A DNA stretch of 8,954 nucleotides from Mariprofundaceae bacterium. GTDB lineage: Bacteria; Pseudomonadota; Zetaproteobacteria; Mariprofundales; Mariprofundaceae. The notes under the pieces are model-generated. The model did no database searches, was not told the DNA's origin, and saw only the letters and a list, made by a program, of their open reading frames with translations. The position numbers and the translations under genes were made by a program. Positions within the stretch are counted from its first letter, which is position 1; each line of letters begins with the position of its first letter. The DNA lies in contig WSZY01000220.1 of the NCBI GenBank assembly GCA_013139875.1, positions 1-8,954 of the forward strand, in the 5' to 3' direction. Shown here one piece after another: positions 19-8,954 of this stretch.

Positions 19-705
19 TCAGCTGATCAGTTTGCGTCGTTCCAGCACGGCCAGTATCCGATCCACCACCTCATCAATTCTCATCGTTGTAGAATCAATT
101 TCAATGGCGTCCTTTGCCCTCACAAGCGGTGAACAGTCACGTCCGCTATCGCGTGCATCACGGGCATTCAGATCATCGACAATCTGATCGAGCGTAACTT
201 TCGCATCACCCTGCTGCAACTGCGCCCAACGTCTGCGTGCCCGCTCCCGATGCGAAGCAGTCAGGAAAAACTTGGCCTCAGCATCAGGCAAAACAACCGT
301 TCCGATGTCACGCCCATCCATAACACAACCCGAAGCGGCAATTTTACGCTGCAATTCGAGAAGCTGTTTACGAATCGCAGGTATCGCCGCCACCGTTGAG
401 GCATAGGCGCCGACATCCTCCCCACGTAACAGCGGAGTGCAATCCCTATTTTCAAAAAATATCCCCTCTGCATGCCAATCCATCTCTTCGACAGCGCTGT
501 CAACTGCTGCAACAACTGCCGATTCATCATCCAGATTAATACCCAGATCATTCGCCCGCCAGCCAAGAAAACGGTAGAGCAGACCCGTATCCATAACAAC
601 CAGCCCAAGTGCTTCCCCTATCATCACCGCAATCGTGCCCTTACCGGAACCGGAGGGGCCGTCGATAGCGATACGCAATCCTTCAACTGCTGTCCATTCA
701 CTCAC
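19..705 (-). CDS. cmk: Cytidylate kinase (CMP/dCMP kinase)
   Basis: This 228-aa cytosolic kinase phosphorylates CMP and dCMP with ATP, giving CDP and dCDP for nucleotide synthesis and salvage. Visible motifs are the P-loop GPSGSGKGT (residues 16-24), DTGLLYR (39-45, the equivalent of the DSGxxYR motif), DGRDIGTVV (130-138), the arginine-rich DLNARDARDSGRD stretch (179-190) and the substrate-side AIEIDST (200-206). The length matches the usual 220-230 aa. The start is a GTG at 703-705, only two bases after the aroA stop (TGATTGTG); no strong Shine-Dalgarno is visible, so translation probably depends on coupling to aroA. It is the last complete gene of the aromatic supraoperon. In many proteobacteria rpsA follows cmk, but the window ends 18 bases after the stop. 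The identification is secure; the exact start is slightly less so. Confidence 0.97.
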   Translation of the reverse strand: MSEWTAVEGLRIAIDGPSGSGKGTIAVMIGEALGLVVMDTGLLYRFLGWRANDLGINLDDESAVVAAVDSAVEEMDWHAEGIFFENRDCTPLLRGEDVGAYASTVAAIPAIRKQLLELQRKIAASGCVMDGRDIGTVVLPDAEAKFFLTASHRERARRRWAQLQQGDAKVTLDQIVDDLNARDARDSGRDCSPLVRAKDAIEIDSTTMRIDEVVDRILAVLERRKLIS

Positions 706-707
706 AA

Positions 708-2045
708 TCAGCCGTCATCCCAGCGAACATTCATACCCAACTTCTGCGCCAACACCACAAAACCGGGGAAAGATGTGGCAATCGCCGCCGCATTCTCAAT
801 GGTAATCCCAGCACCGGAACACTGAGCTGCCACGGCCATCGCCATGGCAATACGGTGATCACCCTCTGCATCCACGCGGCAACCGCCTTTCAGCACTCCA
901 CCTTTGATACGCACACCATCAGAGCGCTCTTCAACGTCAGCCCCGGCAGCCATCAGGGCTCTGGCCATCACAGCAATCCGGTCAGACTCCTTCACCCTGA
1001 GTTCTTCAGCTTCTGACAACAGAAATTCACCATCCGCCAGCGATGCAGCTGCAAAGAGAACCGGAAACTCATCAATCGAATCGGGTACATCGACAGGATT
1101 CACATTGATACCCGCCAACTGTTGATATGTAACATGAATGTCTGCTACAGCCTCTTCACCGACAGCTCCTTCATTCTGCAGTTCCATCTGCCCATTCATA
1201 TCTGAAAGAATCCGGCTCCAGCCATTACGCAGCGGGTTCATGCCGATCCGCTCCAACGTAATATCTGAGCCTGGAACCAGGGAAGCCGCAACAGCAAAAA
1301 AGCTTGCTGAAGACGGATCAGCCGGAATATGGATCGGCTCTTCCGGTGCAGTCAGTTTCCCTGTCGGATTGAGATGAATCATACCCGCTTCATCGACGTG
1401 AACAGGCTGACCAAACAGTGGCAGCATCCGCTCTGTGTGGTCACGGGTCGGGCGAGGTTCAACTACCGTGGTCTCACCATCGGCAAACAGGCCGGCCAGC
1501 AGCACGCACGACTTCACCTGCGCACTGGCAACCTCCGAGATGTAATGAATTGCTTCCAGCGCACCACCCTTAATCGTAATCGGCAGCAGATTTCCACCAT
1601 CAGCACCATCAATGACCGCCCCCATCCTTCGAGCCGGATCGGCCACCCTCTTCATCGGGCGTTTGCAGAGTGACGCATCGCCGGTCATTGTGGTGGTGAA
1701 AGGTTGTCCGGCCAGCACGCCTGTCATCAGTCGCACACAGGTGCCGGAATTGCCGGCATCCAGCATCATCGAAGGCTGTTTCAACCCATGCAGACCCACA
1801 CCATGAACACGTAACGACGTCTTCTCGCTGTTGAGCCAGTCGATCGTAACTCCCATATCCACAAACATCCGGGCCGTAGCCAGGTTGTCCTCACCGGGTA
1901 GAAAACCATGAATTTCAGTTGTACCGTCGGCCAGTGATGCCAGCATCACGGCGCGGTGAGACATCGACTTGTCACCGGGAACAGTAACCCGTCCTTTCAG
2001 TGCTCCGGCTGCCGGACCTGCAATCAGAGTTCCACCTGCATTCAC
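708..2045 (-). CDS. aroA: 3-phosphoshikimate 1-carboxyvinyltransferase (EPSP synthase)
   Basis: EPSP synthase condenses shikimate-3-phosphate with phosphoenolpyruvate, the sixth step of the shikimate pathway. From the chosen start the protein has 445 aa, typical for the family. Key motifs are PGDKSMSHRA (23-32), LDAGNSGTCVRL (95-106), TGDASLCKRPM (121-131), SAQVK (174-178), RDHTE (201-205), PDSIDEFPVL (321-330), RVKESDRI (350-357) and DHRIAM (397-402). GDK, SAQxK and RxHxE are features of the class II-like branch seen in Bacillus-type enzymes; the GNSGT loop resembles the Bacillus form rather than the GNAAT loop of strongly glyphosate-insensitive class II enzymes. The open frame extends to 2141, but that would overlap tyrA by 86 nt. 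A GTG at 2043-2045 has GAGGAG at 2052-2057 with a 6-nt spacer and follows the tyrA stop by 10 nt, so I chose it. Confidence 0.96.
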   Translation of the reverse strand: MNAGGTLIAGPAAGALKGRVTVPGDKSMSHRAVMLASLADGTTEIHGFLPGEDNLATARMFVDMGVTIDWLNSEKTSLRVHGVGLHGLKQPSMMLDAGNSGTCVRLMTGVLAGQPFTTTMTGDASLCKRPMKRVADPARRMGAVIDGADGGNLLPITIKGGALEAIHYISEVASAQVKSCVLLAGLFADGETTVVEPRPTRDHTERMLPLFGQPVHVDEAGMIHLNPTGKLTAPEEPIHIPADPSSASFFAVAASLVPGSDITLERIGMNPLRNGWSRILSDMNGQMELQNEGAVGEEAVADIHVTYQQLAGINVNPVDVPDSIDEFPVLFAAASLADGEFLLSEAEELRVKESDRIAVMARALMAAGADVEERSDGVRIKGGVLKGGCRVDAEGDHRIAMAMAVAAQCSGAGITIENAAAIATSFPGFVVLAQKLGMNVRWDDG

Positions 2046-2051
2046 ACGCTG

Positions 2052-2057
2052 CTCCTC
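2052..2057 (-). promoter_or_regulatory. Ribosome binding site that fixes the aroA start
   Basis: On the minus strand GAGGAG overlaps the last bases of the tyrA stop codon (TGA at 2056-2058) and is followed by six bases and then GTG at 2045-2043. This is the best Shine-Dalgarno near any candidate aroA start. It favours a GTG start with a 445-aa product over the ATG at 2088-2090 inside tyrA. Confidence 0.75.
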
Positions 2058-2949
2058 ACAAGCTCTCTCCGTGTTTTTCAAGCCACTCATCGCGTGCCCT
2101 CTTAGCGGCAGCAAAACTCTGCAACAGTTTCTCTCCGTCACCGCTCTCCAGCATCTGCTTCAATTCAGCAAGCTCTGCCTGAAGCGCATCAATATTGGCT
2201 GAAAGCGCATCACGATTGGAGATGGCAATATCACGCCACATCTCCGGTGATGAGGAGGCAATACGGGTAAAATCACGGAAGCCGCCGGCTGCAAACTGGA
2301 ATGGATCATGCTCATCATCACCCTGCTGACGTACCGCATTGACCAGTGCAAACGCTGCCAGATGCGGCAGATGGCTGACCGAGGCTAAAAAGTCATCATG
2401 CTGCTTCGCATTCATTGACACGACACGGCTCTTTGTCGCCTCCCACATCGCAGTTACAAGAGCCAGTGATTCAGCATCACTGTTTTCGGTTGGTGTCAGG
2501 ATACAGAGACGATCTTCAAACAGCTCGGCAAACGAGGCTTCAGCCCCCGACTGCTCTGTTCCGGCAATCGGATGGGCAGGAATAAAACGGGAACTGTCCG
2601 AGAGATGTTTCTCAGCCACACTGATGGCATGCTGTTTTGTGCTTCCGGCATCGGTCACCACTGCCTTTTCCGGCAATGCTTTGGCAAGCTCGGCAAAGAC
2701 CCGATCGTATGCCCCCATCGGCACAGCCACCAGCACCATGTCGGCATCACCTGCCGCTTCGGCAATATCATGGGTCCAGTGGTCGATAATTCCCAACTCA
2801 CGTGCCCGATCCAGATTCTCACGACTGCGACCGACACCGGTCACACGACCGACAAACCCTGCATGCTTCAAGGCACGAGCAACCGATCCGCCAATCAGGC
2901 CGACACCAATCACCACCAGATGTCCAATTGATTCATTACTTCGGGACAC
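2056..2949 (-). CDS. tyrA: Prephenate dehydrogenase (TyrA, monofunctional)
   Basis: This 297-aa Rossmann-fold enzyme oxidatively decarboxylates prephenate (or arogenate) with NAD(P), the committed step to tyrosine. The dinucleotide-binding motif VIGVGLIGGS is at 13-22, AGSTK at 101-105, the HPIAGTEQSG active-site motif at 126-135, and HDDFLASVSHLPHLAA, with the conserved histidines, at 184-199. GGFRDFTRIASS lies at 222-233. There is no chorismate mutase or ACT domain, so it is the short form, and Phe/Tyr control must come from elsewhere. The start is GTG at 2947-2949, preceded by GGAG at 2956-2959 with 6-nt spacing; no earlier in-frame start is available because TAA (2953-2955) lies two codons upstream. 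It is separated from hisC by an unusual 151-nt gap and is followed after 10 nt by aroA. Substrate preference (prephenate or arogenate) cannot be told from sequence here. Confidence 0.95.
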   Translation of the reverse strand: MSRSNESIGHLVVIGVGLIGGSVARALKHAGFVGRVTGVGRSRENLDRARELGIIDHWTHDIAEAAGDADMVLVAVPMGAYDRVFAELAKALPEKAVVTDAGSTKQHAISVAEKHLSDSSRFIPAHPIAGTEQSGAEASFAELFEDRLCILTPTENSDAESLALVTAMWEATKSRVVSMNAKQHDDFLASVSHLPHLAAFALVNAVRQQGDDEHDPFQFAAGGFRDFTRIASSSPEMWRDIAISNRDALSANIDALQAELAELKQMLESGDGEKLLQSFAAAKRARDEWLEKHGESL

Positions 2950-2952
2950 GAT

Positions 2953-2991
2953 TTACTCCATCCGAACAGGAGTCTTCTGCTCCATATTCAT
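2953..2991 (-). other. Possible 12-codon leader ORF upstream of tyrA
   Basis: A short frame starts at ATG 2989-2991 and reads MNMEQKTPVRME before TAA at 2953-2955. It is in the same frame as tyrA, and its stop is three bases before the tyrA GTG. No strong ribosome binding site precedes it. It could be a translationally coupled leader, the remnant of a longer tyrA N-terminus, or chance. It overlaps GGAG/CTCC complements that could pair in two alternative ways around the tyrA Shine-Dalgarno. Confidence 0.25.
2956..2983 (-). promoter_or_regulatory. Alternative pairing around the tyrA Shine-Dalgarno
   Basis: On the minus strand, GGAG (2983-2980) can pair with CTCC (2972-2969), while the overlapping ACTCC (2973-2969) can instead pair with GGAGT (2960-2956), which contains the tyrA Shine-Dalgarno. 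The two pairings exclude each other. The stems are short (4 and 5 bp), so this is a suggestion of a translational switch, not proof. Confidence 0.3.
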
Positions 2992-3000
2992 CAAACTTTC

Positions 3001-3018
3001 CCGCACACGGATGTGCGG
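3001..3018. repeat. Perfect 7-bp inverted repeat (hairpin 1)
   Basis: CCGCACA at 3001-3007 is the exact complement of TGTGCGG at 3012-3018, with a 4-base loop. It is GC-rich and stable on either strand. No T-tract follows on the minus strand, so termination is unlikely. Confidence 0.7.
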
Positions 3019-3027
3019 CTTTAGTAA

Positions 3028-3055
3028 GCAATCGGAAATCGTAATTTTCGATTGC
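3028..3055. repeat. 12-bp inverted repeat with 4-base loop (hairpin 2)
   Basis: GCAATCGGAAAT (3028-3039) pairs with ATTTTCGATTGC (3044-3055) around the loop CGTA. The one imperfect position is a G-U wobble if read as plus-strand RNA and a C-A mismatch in the minus-strand operon transcript, so the structure is slightly better in RNA made from the plus strand. This would fit an inserted repeat or an antisense RNA, but one position is weak evidence. Confidence 0.65.
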
Positions 3056-3061
3056 ACCAAA

Positions 3062-3088
3062 GGCCGAGAGGCATGGTAGCCCGAGGCC
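3062..3088. repeat. Interrupted inverted repeat (hairpin 3)
   Basis: GGCC (3062-3065) and GGC (3070-3072) pair with GCC (3079-3081) and GGCC (3085-3088), giving a 4-bp and a 3-bp stem separated by an asymmetric internal loop (GAGA opposite CGA) and capped by six bases. It starts 13 nt beyond the hisC stop. Function is unknown. Confidence 0.4.
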
Positions 3089-3100
3089 GTATTAAACACA

Positions 3101-4210
3101 TCACTCCTGGAACGAACTAAATATTGATTCTAAAGCTTTCAGCAGACGCTCGTTCTCCTGCTCGCTTCCTACCGAAATACGCAGATAATCCGGCATTCCA
3201 TAGGGCCCGAGTGGGCGAGGGATAATGCCCTGATCTTCCAGCATCTGCAAAATTTGTGTGGCCTTATCGTGGCGAAGCAGCACAAAATTTCCGAAACTTC
3301 TGCCGCCCAGCACACCCCAACCATCAAAGGTCAGCTCAAGACGATCCCGCTCCTGTTTACAATCAGCCACACGAGCCATCATCCAATCGATATCATCCAG
3401 TGCTGCCAGAGCGGCTTTCTGGGCAATGAGATTAACATTGAAAGGTTCCCTGAAACGGTTGACCAGCGAGACAATCTCCGCATCCGAAATGGCATAGCCG
3501 ATCCGGCATCCTGCCAGTCCGTAAGCCTTGGAGAAGGTACGGCTGATCACCAGTCCGGGATGACTCAGACCGTTAACCGTATCGCCAAGCTCATCAGTAA
3601 CAAATTCGAAGTAGGCCTCATCCATAATGACCACAACACCACGGGGAAGACGGTCTAAAAATGTCTGGATCGCAGTCATGCCATGCAGAGATCCGGTCGG
3701 ATTGTTGGGGTTGGCAATGCAGACCACCCTGGTTCGTTCGCTGACAGCATCTGCCATGGCATTGAGGTCATGACTCAGGCCATCACCTTCAGGCACAGGA
3801 ATGCCGGTCGCTCCGGCAGCCTGTGCAGCCAGCGCGTAGACAATAAAACCACGCTGACTGAAAATCACCTCATCACCGGGACCTGCAAAGGTACGGATCA
3901 GAAGCTCAAGCACCTCATTGGAGCCGTTACCGAGCAGAATATTCTCTGTGATTTTGCCGTGTTTGGCGGCCAGAGCCGCCTTCAACTCGCCACAATCGCC
4001 ATCCGGATAGCGGTGCACTTGCCCGGCAGCTTTTTTAATTGCCCTGATTGCCATCGGTGAGGGGCCGTAAGGGTTCTCATTGGATGCGAGCTTTACCGCC
4101 TCTTTCAGCCCTTTCTCCGCCAGCAACGTCTCAATCGGTTTGCCGGGCAGATAAGGAAAGAGCTTCAACGCCTGTGGCACTGCTCTTTCAGCCCAGTTCA
4201 CCTCACCCAT
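3101..4210 (-). CDS. hisC: Histidinol-phosphate / aromatic aminotransferase (HisC family)
   Basis: This 369-aa PLP-dependent class I/II aminotransferase matches HisC in length and motifs. LASNENPYGPS is at 41-51, the cofactor-binding ANPNNPTG at 166-173, DEAY at 197-200, the Schiff-base lysine K228 within SRTFSKAYGLAGCRIGY (223-239), and the substrate-carboxylate arginine in LRISVG (343-348). HisC-family enzymes transaminate imidazole-acetol phosphate, and many also act on phenylpyruvate and hydroxyphenylpyruvate. The position between pheA and tyrA favours an aromatic role, alone or in addition to histidine synthesis; sequence alone does not separate the two. The ATG overlaps the pheA stop by one base (TAATG), so the two are probably translationally coupled. 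The next gene, tyrA, starts 151 nt downstream. Confidence 0.94.
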   Translation of the reverse strand: MGEVNWAERAVPQALKLFPYLPGKPIETLLAEKGLKEAVKLASNENPYGPSPMAIRAIKKAAGQVHRYPDGDCGELKAALAAKHGKITENILLGNGSNEVLELLIRTFAGPGDEVIFSQRGFIVYALAAQAAGATGIPVPEGDGLSHDLNAMADAVSERTRVVCIANPNNPTGSLHGMTAIQTFLDRLPRGVVVIMDEAYFEFVTDELGDTVNGLSHPGLVISRTFSKAYGLAGCRIGYAISDAEIVSLVNRFREPFNVNLIAQKAALAALDDIDWMMARVADCKQERDRLELTFDGWGVLGGRSFGNFVLLRHDKATQILQMLEDQGIIPRPLGPYGMPDYLRISVGSEQENERLLKALESIFSSFQE

Positions 4211-5364
4211 TAAAGCTTACGTGAGACAGGATAGGAGCCGAGCACCTTGATGAAAGTCCCTGCCTTGTTCTCAACCTCTGCAATGGCAGCAGCCACCGGT
4301 TCGTCATCACGATGCCCCTGAACATCAACAAAGAAGAGATACTCCCAGAGCTTCTTCTTTGATGGGCGCGATTCGATACGGGTCAGGCCGATACCCCGTG
4401 AGGCAAAACAGTGAATCAGGCTGTTCAATGCTCCCGGTTCATCCTTGATTGACATCACCAGTGCTGTCCTGTCCTCACCTGAGGCTGGCGAATCATGCTG
4501 GCCGATCACCAAAAAACGGGTGGTGTTGTCATGGTGGTCTTCCACATTCTTCTGCATCAGTGGTAGTGAGGTCTGATCAACAATGGCGTATGGGCCAATG
4601 GCAGCAGCATGCCGCCACTCCAGATCACCATTACCACTTTTTGCCTCTTCGATCATCCTGGCGGCACGCACAGTTGACGCTACCTCCATCAGGGAAGCAT
4701 TCGGAAGATTCTCCTGCAGCCACTTGCGGCACTGGGCCAGCGGCTGTGGATGTGAGGCCACCAGCTGCACATCTGCCAGCGAATCGGCATAGCTGAAGAG
4801 ATGGTGATGGATTGACAGCTGTACTTCGGCACAGATAAAAATCTCACGATCCATCTCCGAGAAGAGATCGAGTGTATGGGTCACCGCACCTTCAAAGGCA
4901 TTCTCAACCGGCACCACCCCGTAGGTGGCACGACCGGACTCCACTGCATCAAAGATCGCCTCGAAATTTTTGCACGCCATATAGTTGGCCGTAGCACCGA
5001 ACTGCCGGGCTGCCGCGGTGTGAGTGAATGTGCCTTCAGGGCCAAGAAAGGCGATGGTCATCGGATGTTCAAGTGTCAGGCAGGCACCGATCACCTCACG
5101 AAAAATACCATGAATCGCCTCATCGGGAATCTTGGTCATATGTGAGTGCTCAGCCACATCACTGTTGCGAGCCAGCAGCCGACGGATGATCTTCGCCTCA
5201 CGGCTCGGCACATAGAATGGCGCATTGCCCTGATCCACTTTGCGCTCGCCCACTGCTGCCGCCAGCGCCGCACGTTTATGAATCAGTGACAGCACCTCAT
5301 CATCAACCGCATCAATGGCTGAACGCAACTCATCCAGTGTCATTTTGTTATCTGAACCACTCAT
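4210..5364 (-). CDS. pheA: Chorismate mutase / prephenate dehydratase (P-protein)
   Basis: This 384-aa bifunctional enzyme converts chorismate to prephenate and then to phenylpyruvate for phenylalanine synthesis. An AroQ-type chorismate mutase lies at about residues 8-97 (LRSAIDAVDDEVLSLIHKRA). Prephenate dehydratase spans about 101-290, with GPEGTF (108-113), VPVENAFEG (151-159) and the catalytic TRF (282-284). A C-terminal ACT domain (about 300-384) contains PGALNSLIHCF and ESRP (331-334), the region that binds phenylalanine for feedback inhibition in this family. Domain order and length are normal. The ATG at 5362-5364 has no clear Shine-Dalgarno and lies four bases after a 9-bp hairpin; an internal ATG at 5341-5343 (Met8) is a possible alternative and would not remove any mutase core. 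It is the first gene of the aromatic block. Confidence 0.97.
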   Translation of the reverse strand: MSGSDNKMTLDELRSAIDAVDDEVLSLIHKRAALAAAVGERKVDQGNAPFYVPSREAKIIRRLLARNSDVAEHSHMTKIPDEAIHGIFREVIGACLTLEHPMTIAFLGPEGTFTHTAAARQFGATANYMACKNFEAIFDAVESGRATYGVVPVENAFEGAVTHTLDLFSEMDREIFICAEVQLSIHHHLFSYADSLADVQLVASHPQPLAQCRKWLQENLPNASLMEVASTVRAARMIEEAKSGNGDLEWRHAAAIGPYAIVDQTSLPLMQKNVEDHHDNTTRFLVIGQHDSPASGEDRTALVMSIKDEPGALNSLIHCFASRGIGLTRIESRPSKKKLWEYLFFVDVQGHRDDEPVAAAIAEVENKAGTFIKVLGSYPVSRKL

Positions 5365-5571: not shown

Positions 5572-5862
5572 TTAATCCCGGCTCCCTTCCATGTGCCATG
5601 TAAAGCCGCTTCCGGGCACATCATGATCATCGAAAGATTCGACTTCGATAAACTGTGGAACTTCGATCACCGGGGAGCCAGCCTGGTTGTTGAAAACAAT
5701 CTGTTCAAGCTCCTCCCTAACCAGCTCCAGTGCCCTCTTTTTTGCTGCAATGTCGCTATCCGACTCAATAAACCGTGTGGTGTGGAAGCCGAACTCCCGA
5801 GCCCTGCTGCCCACCACTGTTTTATAATTGTTCCCTTTCACCAGAACTTTATATTTTTTCAT
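5572..5862 (-). CDS. Conserved-looking small protein of unknown function
   Basis: I do not recognise a characterised function for this 96-aa protein. It opens with a short beta-like basic segment (MKKYKVLVKGNNY), continues with GFHTTRFIESDS (25-36) and a charged helix (about 37-57), and ends in an acidic strand (VIEVPQFIEVESFDDHD, 65-81) and PGSGFTWH (83-90). There is no signal peptide, membrane segment or cysteine, so a cytosolic alpha/beta protein is likely. The GFHTTRF and GSGFTW patterns resemble small hypothetical proteins I recall from other Gram-negatives; this is memory, not a search. The start ATG has GGAGG (5873-5877) 10 nt upstream, within a hairpin. It stands alone between two intergenic regions and appears to have its own promoter. 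The codons read cleanly and the frame is intact, supporting a real gene. Confidence 0.8.
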   Translation of the reverse strand: MKKYKVLVKGNNYKTVVGSRAREFGFHTTRFIESDSDIAAKKRALELVREELEQIVFNNQAGSPVIEVPQFIEVESFDDHDVPGSGFTWHMEGSRD

Positions 5863-6081: not shown

Positions 6082-6489
6082 CTATTGAATCTTCAATAGC
6101 CCCTTTATCACCATGTCCGTGTAACTGACAATACCGACAATGTTGCCGTCACGATCAATCACCGGCGCTCTGGAGAGGCCAAGGCGGGCAAACAGGGCAC
6201 TGGCATATTTAATATTCATGCCAGGATGCACCGTTACTGCAGGCTTGGTCATCACCTCATAAATACTGACCCGATCCGCAGAACGATCCTTCACCAGCAC
6301 CTCCCGGGCGATATCGGCAATCACCACAATACCGTACTCGTCATGCTCATGGCGTTTGTTGACGATCAGGCATTTAGTCTCAATATGCTCCATCATCTCC
6401 AGTGCCTCACGGACAGTTGCCACACCCTCCACCAGGTCAAACTCCTTTTTCATCACATCGCGTACCAGTAGTGTCACATGTTCGCTCAT
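6082..6489 (-). CDS. Two-CBS-domain protein
   Basis: This 135-aa soluble protein is almost entirely a CBS pair (Bateman module). CBS1 covers about residues 8-66 (VRDVM at 9-13, YGIVVIADIAREVL at 52-65) and CBS2 about 75-133 (VMTKPAVTV at 79-87, APVIDRDGNIVGIVSYTDM at 108-126). The D-x-x-G-x-x-x-G-I-V-S-x-x-D pattern in CBS2 is typical of repeats that bind adenosine nucleotides. There is no enzymatic or membrane domain, so it should act as a sensor or regulator of a partner. Its ATG overlaps the PII-like stop (ATGA), with GGAGGAG just upstream, making co-expression with the PII-like and DUF1538 proteins very likely. The last 18 bases of the gene form a palindrome (CTATTGAA-TC-TTCAATAG) that includes the stop codon. 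Ligand and target are unknown. Confidence 0.9.
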   Translation of the reverse strand: MSEHVTLLVRDVMKKEFDLVEGVATVREALEMMEHIETKCLIVNKRHEHDEYGIVVIADIAREVLVKDRSADRVSIYEVMTKPAVTVHPGMNIKYASALFARLGLSRAPVIDRDGNIVGIVSYTDMVIKGLLKIQ

Positions 6490-6836
6490 AGCTTCTCCTC
6501 CACTTCATCCAGCAGTGTCTCAATCTGCCCCTTAAGGCCGATGGTATCCTCGACATCGATCTGAAACGCCACCCCGCTTCCCGGATGAGCTTCGAACCCG
6601 GCCGTGTCTGCAATCTGCTCGAGTATCTTACGACTCAGGTGCTCCTCGACAATAAAGAGCAGCATCTCGCGCTGAGACTCCAGTGTCAGCCCGAAAAAGG
6701 TCTTGCGCGGATTCAGCCCCTCCCCCCTGGCGTCGCCCACCACCGTAGCGCCCGTGGCACCCGAATCCCGTGCTGCTGTCATGATAGCATCGGTTTTTGT
6801 TGAATCGACAAGTGCAATAATCAGTTTAAAGTGCAT
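6486..6836 (-). CDS. PII-like (GlnB-related) signalling protein
   Basis: The product is a 116-aa soluble protein with the PII ferredoxin-like pattern: first strand FKLIIALVD (3-11), helix, second strand GATGATVVGDARG (26-38), a T-loop-like segment EGLNPRKTFFGLTL (39-52), strand REMLLFIVEE (56-65), helix, and a B-loop-like ending TAGFEAHPGSGVAFQIDVEDTIGL (78-101; key GSG and VE). The canonical YRGAEY uridylylation motif is absent, so it is a divergent PII rather than GlnB/GlnK. PII proteins are trimers that sense ATP/ADP and other small molecules and control partner proteins, often transporters. The open frame extends to 6902, but ATG 6834-6836 has GGAGG at 6843-6847 with a 6-nt spacer and starts the PII fold, so I chose it. 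It overlaps the preceding DUF1538 gene by 11 nt. Confidence 0.85.
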   Translation of the reverse strand: MHFKLIIALVDSTKTDAIMTAARDSGATGATVVGDARGEGLNPRKTFFGLTLESQREMLLFIVEEHLSRKILEQIADTAGFEAHPGSGVAFQIDVEDTIGLKGQIETLLDEVEEKL

Positions 6837-7620
6837 TGTCTGCCTCCTTGATCTGCTGCGATTTACCGATTTTCTGAGAGAGTTGGGCATAGCCCATAAC
6901 ACTCATAATCGGAAAAACGCTAGCGAATGCGATGAGTCCAAACCCATCGATCAGGGGACTTCTCCCCGGAATAGTTGATGCAAGCCCCAGGCCCAGGGCT
7001 GCCAGTAAAGGTACAGTTATCGTTGATGTGGTAACGCCACCGGAATCATAGGCGAGCGGAATAATCATACGTGGTGCAAATCGGGTCTGAATGATTACAA
7101 CCACGTACGCAGCCATCACATAGAGCCAGAGATCCGTGCCTGTAACGATACGGAAGCAGCCGATTGAGACACCCACAGCCACACCGAGTGAGACGGCAAT
7201 GCGTAGCCCCAGGGCGGAGATCGCACCACCGGATACCTGCTGTGCTTTTATCCCCACCGCAATCAGCGCTGGTTCAGCCAGCGTGGTTGCCATGCCGATG
7301 GCAAATGCAAAAATATAGACCCAGGCATAATCCTGCCAACGGATAATTTCCGGGATGGTGGCTGCTGCACCATAGAGAAAGTGAGGGTCGGTCAACTGCA
7401 TGGCCATCATCTTGCCGAGCGGAAAGATCGCCTCCTTCAGCCCCATAAGAAAGAGTGCCAACCCGAGCAGAACGTAGACAAAGCCACGAATCACCGACCA
7501 GAGGTGCGGAATTGGCTGGCGAAGCACCAGCAGCTGGAAGCCCAGCAGTACCACCACAATGGGCAATACATCATGAAGTGTTGAAAGCATAGTGTCCACG
7601 AACAGATCAGACATGTTCAT
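6826..7620 (-). CDS. DUF1538 family membrane protein (second paralogue)
   Basis: This 264-aa polytopic inner-membrane protein has about six or seven hydrophobic segments (roughly 18-34, 45-63, 98-123, 137-157, 164-178, 196-215, 223-245). Conserved motifs shared with its upstream neighbour are RQPIPHL (34-40), FPLG (66-69), [11 protein letters not shown] (112-122), [17 protein letters not shown] (189-205) and [16 protein letters not shown] (219-234). These are the hallmark blocks of DUF1538, a family of putative transporters with no established substrate that I know of. Compared with the paralogue it has an extra loop around 74-96 and a charged C-terminal tail (about 246-264). The start overlaps the previous stop (ATGA); a second Met at position 3 is an alternative. 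The stop overlaps the PII-like gene by 11 nt, implying coupled translation and probably a functional link. Confidence 0.88.
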
Positions 7621-8375
7621 GCTGTGATGATCCCATAAAGCATGACAAAAATCATCGGCAACAGTGATGCAAATGCAATCAGGCCGAAACCATCCAGTAC
7701 CGGATTCCTGCCACGAATCGAGGTGGCCAGACCGACACCCAGTGCTGTTACCAATGGAACGGTGATGGTGGAAGTGGTAACACCACCCGAATCGTAGGCG
7801 ATACCGATGATCTCCTCAGGTGCGAAGTAGGTTATTACCACTGCCAGAATATAACCGGCCATGATGCAGAGATGCAGCGGCCAGCCGAAAATAATACGCA
7901 GTACACCAAGTACGATCGCCGAACCCACTGAGAGCGCCACCACCATGCGAAGATTGAATGCATAGTCGGCCATTGCCATCTCACCATGCTCAATCACTCC
8001 GCCCTGGGCCGCCACTTCAGCCGCTTTTCCAGCCACCGCAATCAATGCCGGTTCTGCCACAGTGGTGCTAAAACCAAGCAGGAACGCAAACAGAAGAAGC
8101 CAGAAAACACTGCCTTTTTTTGCAAAGGCGTGTGCCATCGCCTCACCCAATGGAAAAAGACCGATCTCCAGGCCGCGAATAAAGAGAGCCAGCCCCACAA
8201 GCACGAACAGAAGTCCTGCCAGCAGTTCCCCCAGATTGGGAATCGGCTGTTCTAGTACAATTTCCTGGAAAAAAAGGATCACCACAATAATCGGCGTGAG
8301 ATCCCGCACTGCTTCAACCAGCGGCCTGAAGGCATCGCGGAACGTATTCCACATGGGTTGAAGCTTGTCTGTCAT
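7617..8375 (-). CDS. DUF1538 family membrane protein (first paralogue)
   Basis: This 252-aa integral membrane protein has hydrophobic segments at about 27-47, 51-72, 89-114, 143-163, 167-184, 199-217 and 229-250. Signature blocks are LEQPIPNL (41-48), FPLG (74-77), [11 protein letters not shown] (104-114), [17 protein letters not shown] (192-208) and [16 protein letters not shown] (222-237). The Asp and Thr/Ser-rich GGVTTST segment inside a hydrophobic stretch, and the AEPAL segment in the first half, look like substrate- or ion-binding re-entrant regions; that is inference. The family is DUF1538, usually described only as a putative transporter. Its ATG overlaps the hisS stop (TAATG), with AAGG four bases before the start codon. 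The following gene is a paralogue, so the pair may form a heteromer. Confidence 0.88.
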
Positions 8376-8954
8376 TATGCCTTCTGTGCGATCAACTCTA
8401 CTGCAGCGTCCAGCGTTAAAGTGTGCTGTTCACCTGTGCTCATCTGCTTCAGTGTCACAACACTCCGGTTCATCTCATCGTCACCCACCACCATCACAAA
8501 ACGAGCTCCCTCACGGTCAGCCATCCTGAACTGTCGTTTGGCGCTGCCACCACCACAGTGAACTGTTGCCAGCCCTCTGCCCCGCAGCTCGGAAGCAAGC
8601 TTCAGCACGTGCCCCTTCACCGAATCGCCAAGTGCGACCACGGCAACATCCGGCACTGCTCTCTCCTCATCCGGTAGCAACATCGCCAGCCGTTCAATGC
8701 CCATGGCAAAGCCGATAGCAGGTGTGGCAGGCCCCCCGAGCTCTTCGATAAGCCCATCGTAACGGCCGCCGGCAATCACGGTTCCCTGTGCACCGAGCTG
8801 ATCGGTAATAATCTCAAAGGCAGTACGATTGTAGTAGTCGAGCCCCCGCACAATGCGCGGATTCAATTGATAATCGACATTCAGGGCATCAAGCCCCTCT
8901 TTCACACCGGCAAAGTGGTGGTCACAATCGTCGCAGAGGTGGTGAACCATCTCC
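8375..8954 (-). CDS. hisS: Histidyl-tRNA synthetase, C-terminal part (5' end outside window)
   Basis: This frame enters from the right edge and gives the last 192 residues of HisRS, which charges tRNA-His with histidine. The class II catalytic core is recognisable by the histidine-specific motif [15 protein letters not shown], the glycine-rich [17 protein letters not shown] and the motif 3 region [12 protein letters not shown]. The remaining ~100 residues form the alpha/beta anticodon-binding domain ([20 protein letters not shown] ... [19 protein letters not shown]) and end in a normal-looking helix. The catalytic N-terminal portion with motifs 1 and 2 is beyond the window, so integrity there cannot be judged. 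The TAA stop shares one base with the ATG of the DUF1538 gene, placing these downstream genes in the hisS transcription unit or at least in read-through distance. Confidence 0.97.

Follow-up and report, generated by a model that had tools for sequence, protein, structure and literature searches.

Introduction

The balance of Na+, K+ and protons decides survival in salty, alkaline water. Here we analyze four genes at positions 6082..8375 of an 8,954-nucleotide stretch of DNA from a Mariprofundaceae bacterium (contig WSZY01000220.1; below, the window), which encode two DUF1538 membrane proteins, a PII-like protein and a stand-alone CBS pair. The closest described system is UmpAB of Halomonas zhaodongensis (PMC5484666). 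UmpA and UmpB form a heterodimer, as found by co-immunoprecipitation, and catalyze Na+, Li+ and K+/H+ antiport in vesicles with a pH optimum of 9.0, and the full salt and alkali tolerance of E. coli KNabc needs both proteins together, neither being sufficient alone. The 4.2-kb Halomonas clone contains ORF1 to ORF4 (ORF, open reading frame), with umpB the last-numbered, and the region past umpB is left undescribed; Vibrio ezurae is listed among the close homologues. UmpAB, the sole member of the family found to have been assayed in the literature, was studied without PII-like or CBS sensors.

PII control is known for ammonium, nitrate, urea and bicarbonate transporters, according to a 2023 review (PMC10710835), so a PII-gated monovalent-cation/proton antiporter would be new. 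We find that the four genes of the window form one conserved unit, and the reading that we favor, with a probability of roughly 0.6, is that they would encode a cation/proton antiporter of the UmpA/UmpB kind gated by two cytoplasmic sensors.

Gene identities and junctions

All four genes lie on the minus strand. The products of the umpA-like gene (8375-7617; 252 amino acids, aa) and the umpB-like gene (7620-6826; 264 aa) match PF07556 with 229.4 and 216.3 bits, respectively, well above the gathering cut-off of 22.6 bits, and each protein of this adjacent pair has its best match to its own NCBIfam model (NF041627, UmpA, 376.5 bits; NF041628, UmpB, 327.2 bits). Together with the assayed antiporter (PMC5484666), these models supersede the first-pass annotation of the window inasmuch as it described the membrane pair as being of unknown function. 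The PII-like protein (6836-6486; 116 aa) matches PF00543 with 42.8 bits (cut-off 25), and the CBS protein (6489-6082; 135 aa) matches PF00571 over two stretches with 65.3 bits (cut-off 24).

The umpA/umpB and PII-like/CBS junctions both overlap as ATGA, and the 3' end of umpB overlaps the start of the PII-like gene by 11 bases, with AAGGAGG ahead of the PII-like ATG. The PII-like ORF as listed opens at GTG 6902; judging from homologues and from this Shine-Dalgarno site, ATG 6836 fits better as the start. Coordinates, Pfam matches and the junctions at the DNA level thus confirm the four genes with overlapping junctions that had been annotated at this place. In the host genome assembly (1.16 Mb, 74% complete), one DUF1538 pair was found.

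Conserved linkage of the four genes

A survey for co-occurrence of DUF1538, PII-like and CBS genes had been proposed beforehand as a possible refutation of a common system; the linkage was found to be kept. With UmpA alone as the query, the best 80 of 178 loci (the named loci) were analyzed, among which the nearest relatives are Zetaproteobacteria and Mariprofundaceae metagenome-assembled genomes (MAGs), with UmpA identity of 89-90%. In 69 of the 80, the order is umpA-umpB-PII-CBS, all on one strand, including the locus of V. ezurae (L107); five have umpA-umpB-PII without CBS, two of these at contig ends, and another five end ahead of where a PII-like gene could show. Among loci with room, a PII-like gene follows umpB in 74 of 75, and CBS comes next in 69 of the 72 with further room. 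The median gaps between the matched domains, in the order given, are 36, 59 and 21 bases.

The same association was observed in a phylum sample of 249 genomes in which the family of the window is heavily represented: 74 genomes gave a PF07556 match, 66 matched the PII-like profile (E ≤ 1e-15), and 63 gave both; at 61 of the 64 umpAB places (61 genomes), a PII-like gene lies at most 264 bp away. In the class of genome G046, presumably Gammaproteobacteria, UmpA (E ≤ 1e-100) was detected in 98 of 368 sampled genomes, about a quarter. Forty of these 98 neighborhoods were read (20 of the 21 top-ranked rows, with 20 more distributed among the others), and all four genes are present in order in 38, the remaining two being cut by a contig edge (with room, 38/38). 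The outer neighbors, meanwhile, change: clustering yields 45 groups for 70 loci upstream and 42 groups for 58 loci downstream. So consistent a gene order far exceeds what chance would give, and these counts establish the linkage and bear out the four genes as one conserved unit.

It has to be considered that the genes are adjacent for expression only, with no functional tie. The fact that hisS overlaps umpA too (one common base, TAATG), outside any wider conserved unit, would agree with such an arrangement. Among 111 loci searched, many of which include little upstream sequence, 13 gave a hisS match (the window itself accounts for two of these), so that hisS is an upstream neighbor and not a conserved part of the system. 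However, the order of the four genes is kept across classes while the outer neighbors vary, and fused DUF1538 proteins of other branches retain PII-like partners (see below), which makes adjacency for expression alone extremely improbable.

In a main-text term search of the literature on DUF1538 or UmpAB, PII proteins were unmentioned, the lone match (PMC7221264) being a residue string, and CBS was likewise unmentioned in the texts searched for it, a set that excludes PMC13255231 and PMC12093952. Among the literature matches listed, with most subscription journals not covered, no title or abstract opening concerned a DUF1538-PII-CBS linkage.

Topology and conserved residues of the membrane pair

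The UmpA-like and UmpB-like proteins of the window are 50% identical, with seven predicted crossings each; the six loops were placed from model helices and aligned sequences. Lysine and arginine are mainly in loops 2, 4 and 6 of UmpA and in loops 1, 3 and 5 of UmpB. The positive-inside rule relates loop charge to membrane side, and accordingly UmpA is predicted to have its N-terminus inside and its C-terminus outside, with the opposite orientation and a hydrophilic cytoplasmic C-terminal tail predicted for UmpB.

When all residues were counted over 149 pairs, 147 first halves were even-loop positive and only 106 second halves odd-loop positive (for the second halves, 34 ties and 9 opposite), which speaks against a uniform opposite orientation. 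The two halves have three conserved arginines in common (143, 160 and 223), which obscure the charge count. With these shared arginines left out, a step chosen after the first count was seen, and with identical sequences counted once, the first half is even-loop positive in 116 of 132 (11 ties, 5 opposite) and the second half odd-loop positive in 133 of 133; the fused proteins within that count fit in 21 of 23 first halves and 23 of 23 second halves. Given the opposite charge bias and the positive-inside rule, UmpA and UmpB are probably antiparallel in the membrane, the UmpB tail being cytoplasmic, and seven crossings let a direct fusion keep the antiparallel arrangement. A term search of PMC5484666 returned no mention of antiparallel or of topology.

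In an alignment of 73 DUF1538 sequences, E108-P109, D195 and G197 to T203 are invariant, and the stretch TT.AEPAL and a second stretch of 11 residues are largely so. Both stretches are located at or near breaks between model helices 90-106/109-124 and 187-199/205-218, and the UmpA structure model is confident (pLDDT 93.7). E108 and D195 (UmpA numbering) are, from this model, candidate ion and proton binding residues. Separately, an internal repeat within DUF1538 was considered and dropped, profile comparison of the halves having given no convincing alignment.

The PII-like protein

Foldseek places the PII-like protein in the PII fold, with 259 matches at E ≤ 0.001, to PII and CPII (best E 3.3e-06). 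Residues K90, R101 and R103, which in canonical GlnB/GlnK contact the ATP phosphates, are absent in all 18 of the type I rows compared (every third of 54 alignment rows), position 103 being K in two. Among 27 canonical rows of related genomes, K90 is present in 24, R101 in 23 and R103 in 22; these rows were picked by motifs including K90 and R103 and so are not independent. The T-loop is shortened, with a conserved KTFFGL tip, and the window protein has no tyrosine anywhere; the T-loop tyrosine is the uridylylation site of canonical GlnB/GlnK. In both the ATP-phosphate residues and the T-loop tyrosine, then, the protein differs in sequence from canonical GlnB/GlnK, suggestive of an altered ligand or binding mode, which we consider likely.

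In a phylogenetic tree of PII proteins, 26 canonical rows cluster together with strong support, separately from the DUF1538-linked rows, the remainder being poorly resolved; one canonical row (L210) was a misread frame, and the first tandem halves and the additional type II genes had been excluded from the outset. Stand-alone PII-like genes were also observed (L151-L156, L200, L201), some of which adjoin a gene for an SH3_3-domain protein (L152, L154, L155) or a Dus gene (L152, L153), and the family may, therefore, have other targets besides umpAB.

The CBS-pair protein and cyclic di-AMP

The nearest PDB sequence match of the CBS pair is CBS-CP12 (5nmu, E 6.5e-21). GxxS/TxxD/N, the ribose-phosphate motif of nucleotide-binding CBS pairs, is found in the second CBS motif of 49 of 71 homologues and in the first CBS motif of seven, which favors an adenine nucleotide as the probable ligand of the CBS pair. 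The label nucleotide-controlled, initially attached to the system as a whole, is half supported: the motif counts favor it on the CBS side, and on the PII-like side K90, R101 and R103 are missing in all rows compared.

Cyclic di-AMP (c-di-AMP) could conceivably be a shared signal, bound by the PII-like protein (as by PstA) or by the CBS protein (as by CbpB) and shutting the antiporter in osmotic stress. The diadenylate cyclase domain PF02457 is present in the window's genome (G000:C34:740-1093), 38 genomes out of 61 searched have it above the cut-off, and the CBS protein matches CbpB weakly (23.4 bits). Nevertheless, three genomes with umpAB and the PII-like gene (G045, G046 and G051) gave no PF02457 match, so c-di-AMP cannot be the general signal, and this explanation is distinctly improbable. 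As an observation in its own right, PF02457 occurs in most of the searched genomes of the window's family, a hint at c-di-AMP signaling in Zetaproteobacteria, in which c-di-AMP may act as a ligand of the sensors.

Fused DUF1538 proteins and their PII-like partners

Fused DUF1538 proteins of about 500 aa (L157, L158, L159) keep the PII-like and CBS genes. By contrast, 11 genomes with a fused form of about 600 aa are seemingly without a PII-like gene at E ≤ 1e-15. We read 11 neighborhoods of this form, four of which (L142-L145) come from those 11 genomes: a divergent PII-like gene adjoins the fused gene in 11/11 (46-54 bits with the type I profile, which was built without these loci), and a third, more divergent small gene then follows in 11/11, as detected with its own profile (seven by construction, the second- and third-gene profiles each having been built from seven of the 11). 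The type I profile finds the third gene in two of the 11, weakly. Profile comparison links the second and third genes to the type I PII family with 98.5% and 92.3% probability, respectively; each of the alignments behind these values had one wrong-frame row (the second gene of L144 and the third gene of L146), removed from later profiles.

A plasmid search, from which six of nine records were read (H1, H2, H5, H7, H8 and H9), and sampling of further phyla extended this pattern. In all eight loci from Clostridia plasmids (L177, L180-L182) and from the phylum of a Cryomorphaceae MAG (L185-L188), a PII-like partner comes after a fused DUF1538 protein (478-626 aa). The partner consists of two domains in one protein (five loci), three domains (L186), two separate genes (L187) or one recognized domain in a 229-aa protein (L182), so that two or three PII-like domains are recognized in seven of the eight. 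Two alphaproteobacterial plasmids (L178, L179) carry a split pair and then a PII-like gene. DUF1538 was found in five of 118 genomes sampled from the Cryomorphaceae-MAG phylum, with a PII-like partner in 5/5, and in three of 119 from the phylum of a Scalindua MAG, with a partner seen in two and a contig edge in one. Across branches, therefore, DUF1538 is usually accompanied by a PII-like protein, and the second sensor comes in two kinds, CBS being one; by these sequence comparisons, other branches have an additional PII-like domain in place of the CBS pair.

Two other arrangements were observed among these loci. At L186:5001-6140, the gene after the fused DUF1538 gene encodes a 380-aa protein that comprises the three PII-like domains, and at L148:2241-7249 and L150:2999-7187, two differing DUF1538 systems stand side by side in one genome.

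Proposed mechanism and alternatives

The pair likely works as an Na+(Li+,K+)/H+ antiporter. We propose that UmpA and UmpB would exchange Na+(Li+,K+) for H+ as an antiparallel pair, each protein with seven crossings and two broken helices, the latter carrying E108 and D195 and presumably forming the ion path. The CBS pair would sense an adenine nucleotide, as its motif suggests, and the PII-like protein some ligand through its altered site; both would dock at the cytoplasmic face and switch the antiporter by the energy state of the cell, the T-loop of the PII-like protein locking or releasing it by analogy with GlnK/AmtB and SbtB/SbtA. The first-pass reading already combined a membrane pair with two types of cytoplasmic sensor; the linkage supports this reading, and it remains the best one, with gating by the PII-like and CBS proteins suggested by analogy. 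A broader proposal, to which we give somewhat less than even odds, is that DUF1538 could be a class of cation/proton antiporters of ancient origin, built as antiparallel pairs and generally PII-gated (by one PII-like protein and a CBS pair, or by two to three PII-like domains), with the PII site rebuilt for a signal besides canonical ATP/2-oxoglutarate, which would make it the first PII-controlled monovalent-cation/proton antiporter class.

Beyond the first charge count, several observations weigh against the proposed antiporter gated by two sensors. The linkage has gaps: in one named locus (L061, a Beggiatoa MAG), no PII-like gene accompanies umpAB although 4.2 kb of sequence is available for it, three more carry the PII-like gene and lack CBS in spite of sufficient sequence, and three umpAB places of the phylum sample (G112, G038, G039) are without a nearby PII-like gene, which is elsewhere in the genome. 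Conversely, PII-like genes of the same family lie away from umpAB at 17 of 78 places, and three of the 66 phylum-sample genomes with a PII-like gene are without any DUF1538 match. Both membrane proteins score below the NCBIfam equivalog cut-offs (376.5 vs. 490 for UmpA and 327.2 vs. 500 for UmpB), and the UmpA cut-off is reached by none of the 368 genomes of the G046 class. In E. coli, UmpAB showed antiport from a clone without its own PII or CBS gene (PMC5484666), and transport therefore does not require the sensors. Finally, PII control appears limited to transporters able to work as trimers (PMC10710835), and UmpAB was reported as a heterodimer (PMC5484666); a PII-gated UmpAB thus raises a question of stoichiometry.

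The equivalog shortfall bears on a different substrate, for example bicarbonate, ammonium or a metal, which the PII-like and CBS proteins would gate, antiport being a property of the Halomonas branch only. The substrates of known PII-controlled transporters (PMC10710835) and the PII-NG proteins that adjoin CzcABC metal pumps (PMC7726332) point the same way. Yet, the pair shows full-length homology to an assayed antiporter, the residues E108-P109, D195 and G197 to T203 are invariant, and many named loci come from taxa such as Vibrio and Mariprofundus. These two are salt-water dwellers. A different substrate is, accordingly, unlikely. The substrate had originally been left as a guess between bicarbonate, ammonium or a cation; because the DUF1538 pair is homologous to UmpAB (PMC5484666), the cation is now favored over the other two, and the choice is no longer a free one.

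The function of UmpAB in E. coli without both sensors (PMC5484666), together with the PII-like genes that stand alone at 17 of 78 places and could have other targets, would also be compatible with the two proteins being receivers and not gates, such that the antiporter binds or releases both and so passes on the ion or pH state to targets elsewhere in the cell. However, the genes of the window overlap at every junction, and a second PII-like domain replaces CBS in other branches; local control fits better, and we consider receivers slightly more unlikely still than a different substrate.

Other features of the window

Upstream of umpA lies the 3' part of hisS (8375-8953, minus strand; TIGR00442). 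On the other side of the four genes, a 96-aa ORF (5572-5862, minus strand) is without a Pfam or NCBIfam match; an 81% identical copy is found 3' of the CBS gene in L033 and again in L232 (probably the same genome as L033), and the ORF looks, from these copies, like a real gene of close relatives. An ORF at 19-705 (minus strand), without a match listed at the E-value used, appears cytidylate-kinase-like. Positions 19-5364 contain an unremarkable series of genes, chiefly for aromatic amino acids (aroA, tyrA, hisC and prephenate dehydratase, minus strand).

An Rfam scan of the window yielded no matches at the gathering score and, therefore, no known riboswitch. Terminator and promoter scans gave five hits (3.2 in shuffled sequence, near expectation) and eight hits (3.3 in shuffled sequence, somewhat higher), respectively, and were not used as evidence.

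Comparison with known systems

SMR pairs such as PsmrAB, and Fluc, are dual-topology paired small transporters, and in ClC transporters a CBS pair serves as a nucleotide switch. The DUF1538 pair resembles the former in being a homologous gene pair with opposite positive-inside signs; it differs in that DUF1538 proteins are larger, and UmpAB is described as without identity to PsmrAB (PMC5484666).

Like UmpAB, the pair of the window consists of adjacent, overlapping, homologous DUF1538 genes with seven predicted crossings in each product, the halves of UmpAB being 43% identical (PMC5484666) vs. 50% in the window. In contrast, the text of PMC5484666 holds no mention of PII, P-II or CBS, and the proteins of the window are below the equivalog cut-offs.

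GlnK-AmtB and SbtB-SbtA share with this locus a PII-fold protein beside or acting on a transporter (PMC10710835), with docking through the T-loop assumed here. The differences are the unrelated cation/proton antiporter family, a PII-like protein without K90, R101, R103 and tyrosine, and the additional CBS protein. PII-NG/CzcABC likewise links a divergent PF00543 protein to a proton-coupled cation exporter (PMC7726332), whereas the partner here is DUF1538 and not an RND pump, and the linkage to CzcABC-type pumps is absent. If the proposed gating is true, PII control would extend to monovalent-cation/proton antiport, and many proteins annotated as 'P-II family nitrogen regulator' would gain a role besides nitrogen control.

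In MgtE and CorB/MpfA, the CBS pair is the nucleotide switch of an ion transporter (PMC10710835), a role comparable to that suggested here. Unlike in these proteins and in ClC, the CBS pair of the present system is a separate protein, and, if the antiporter is indeed gated by it and by the PII-like protein, a transporter with two separable sensors would become available for study.

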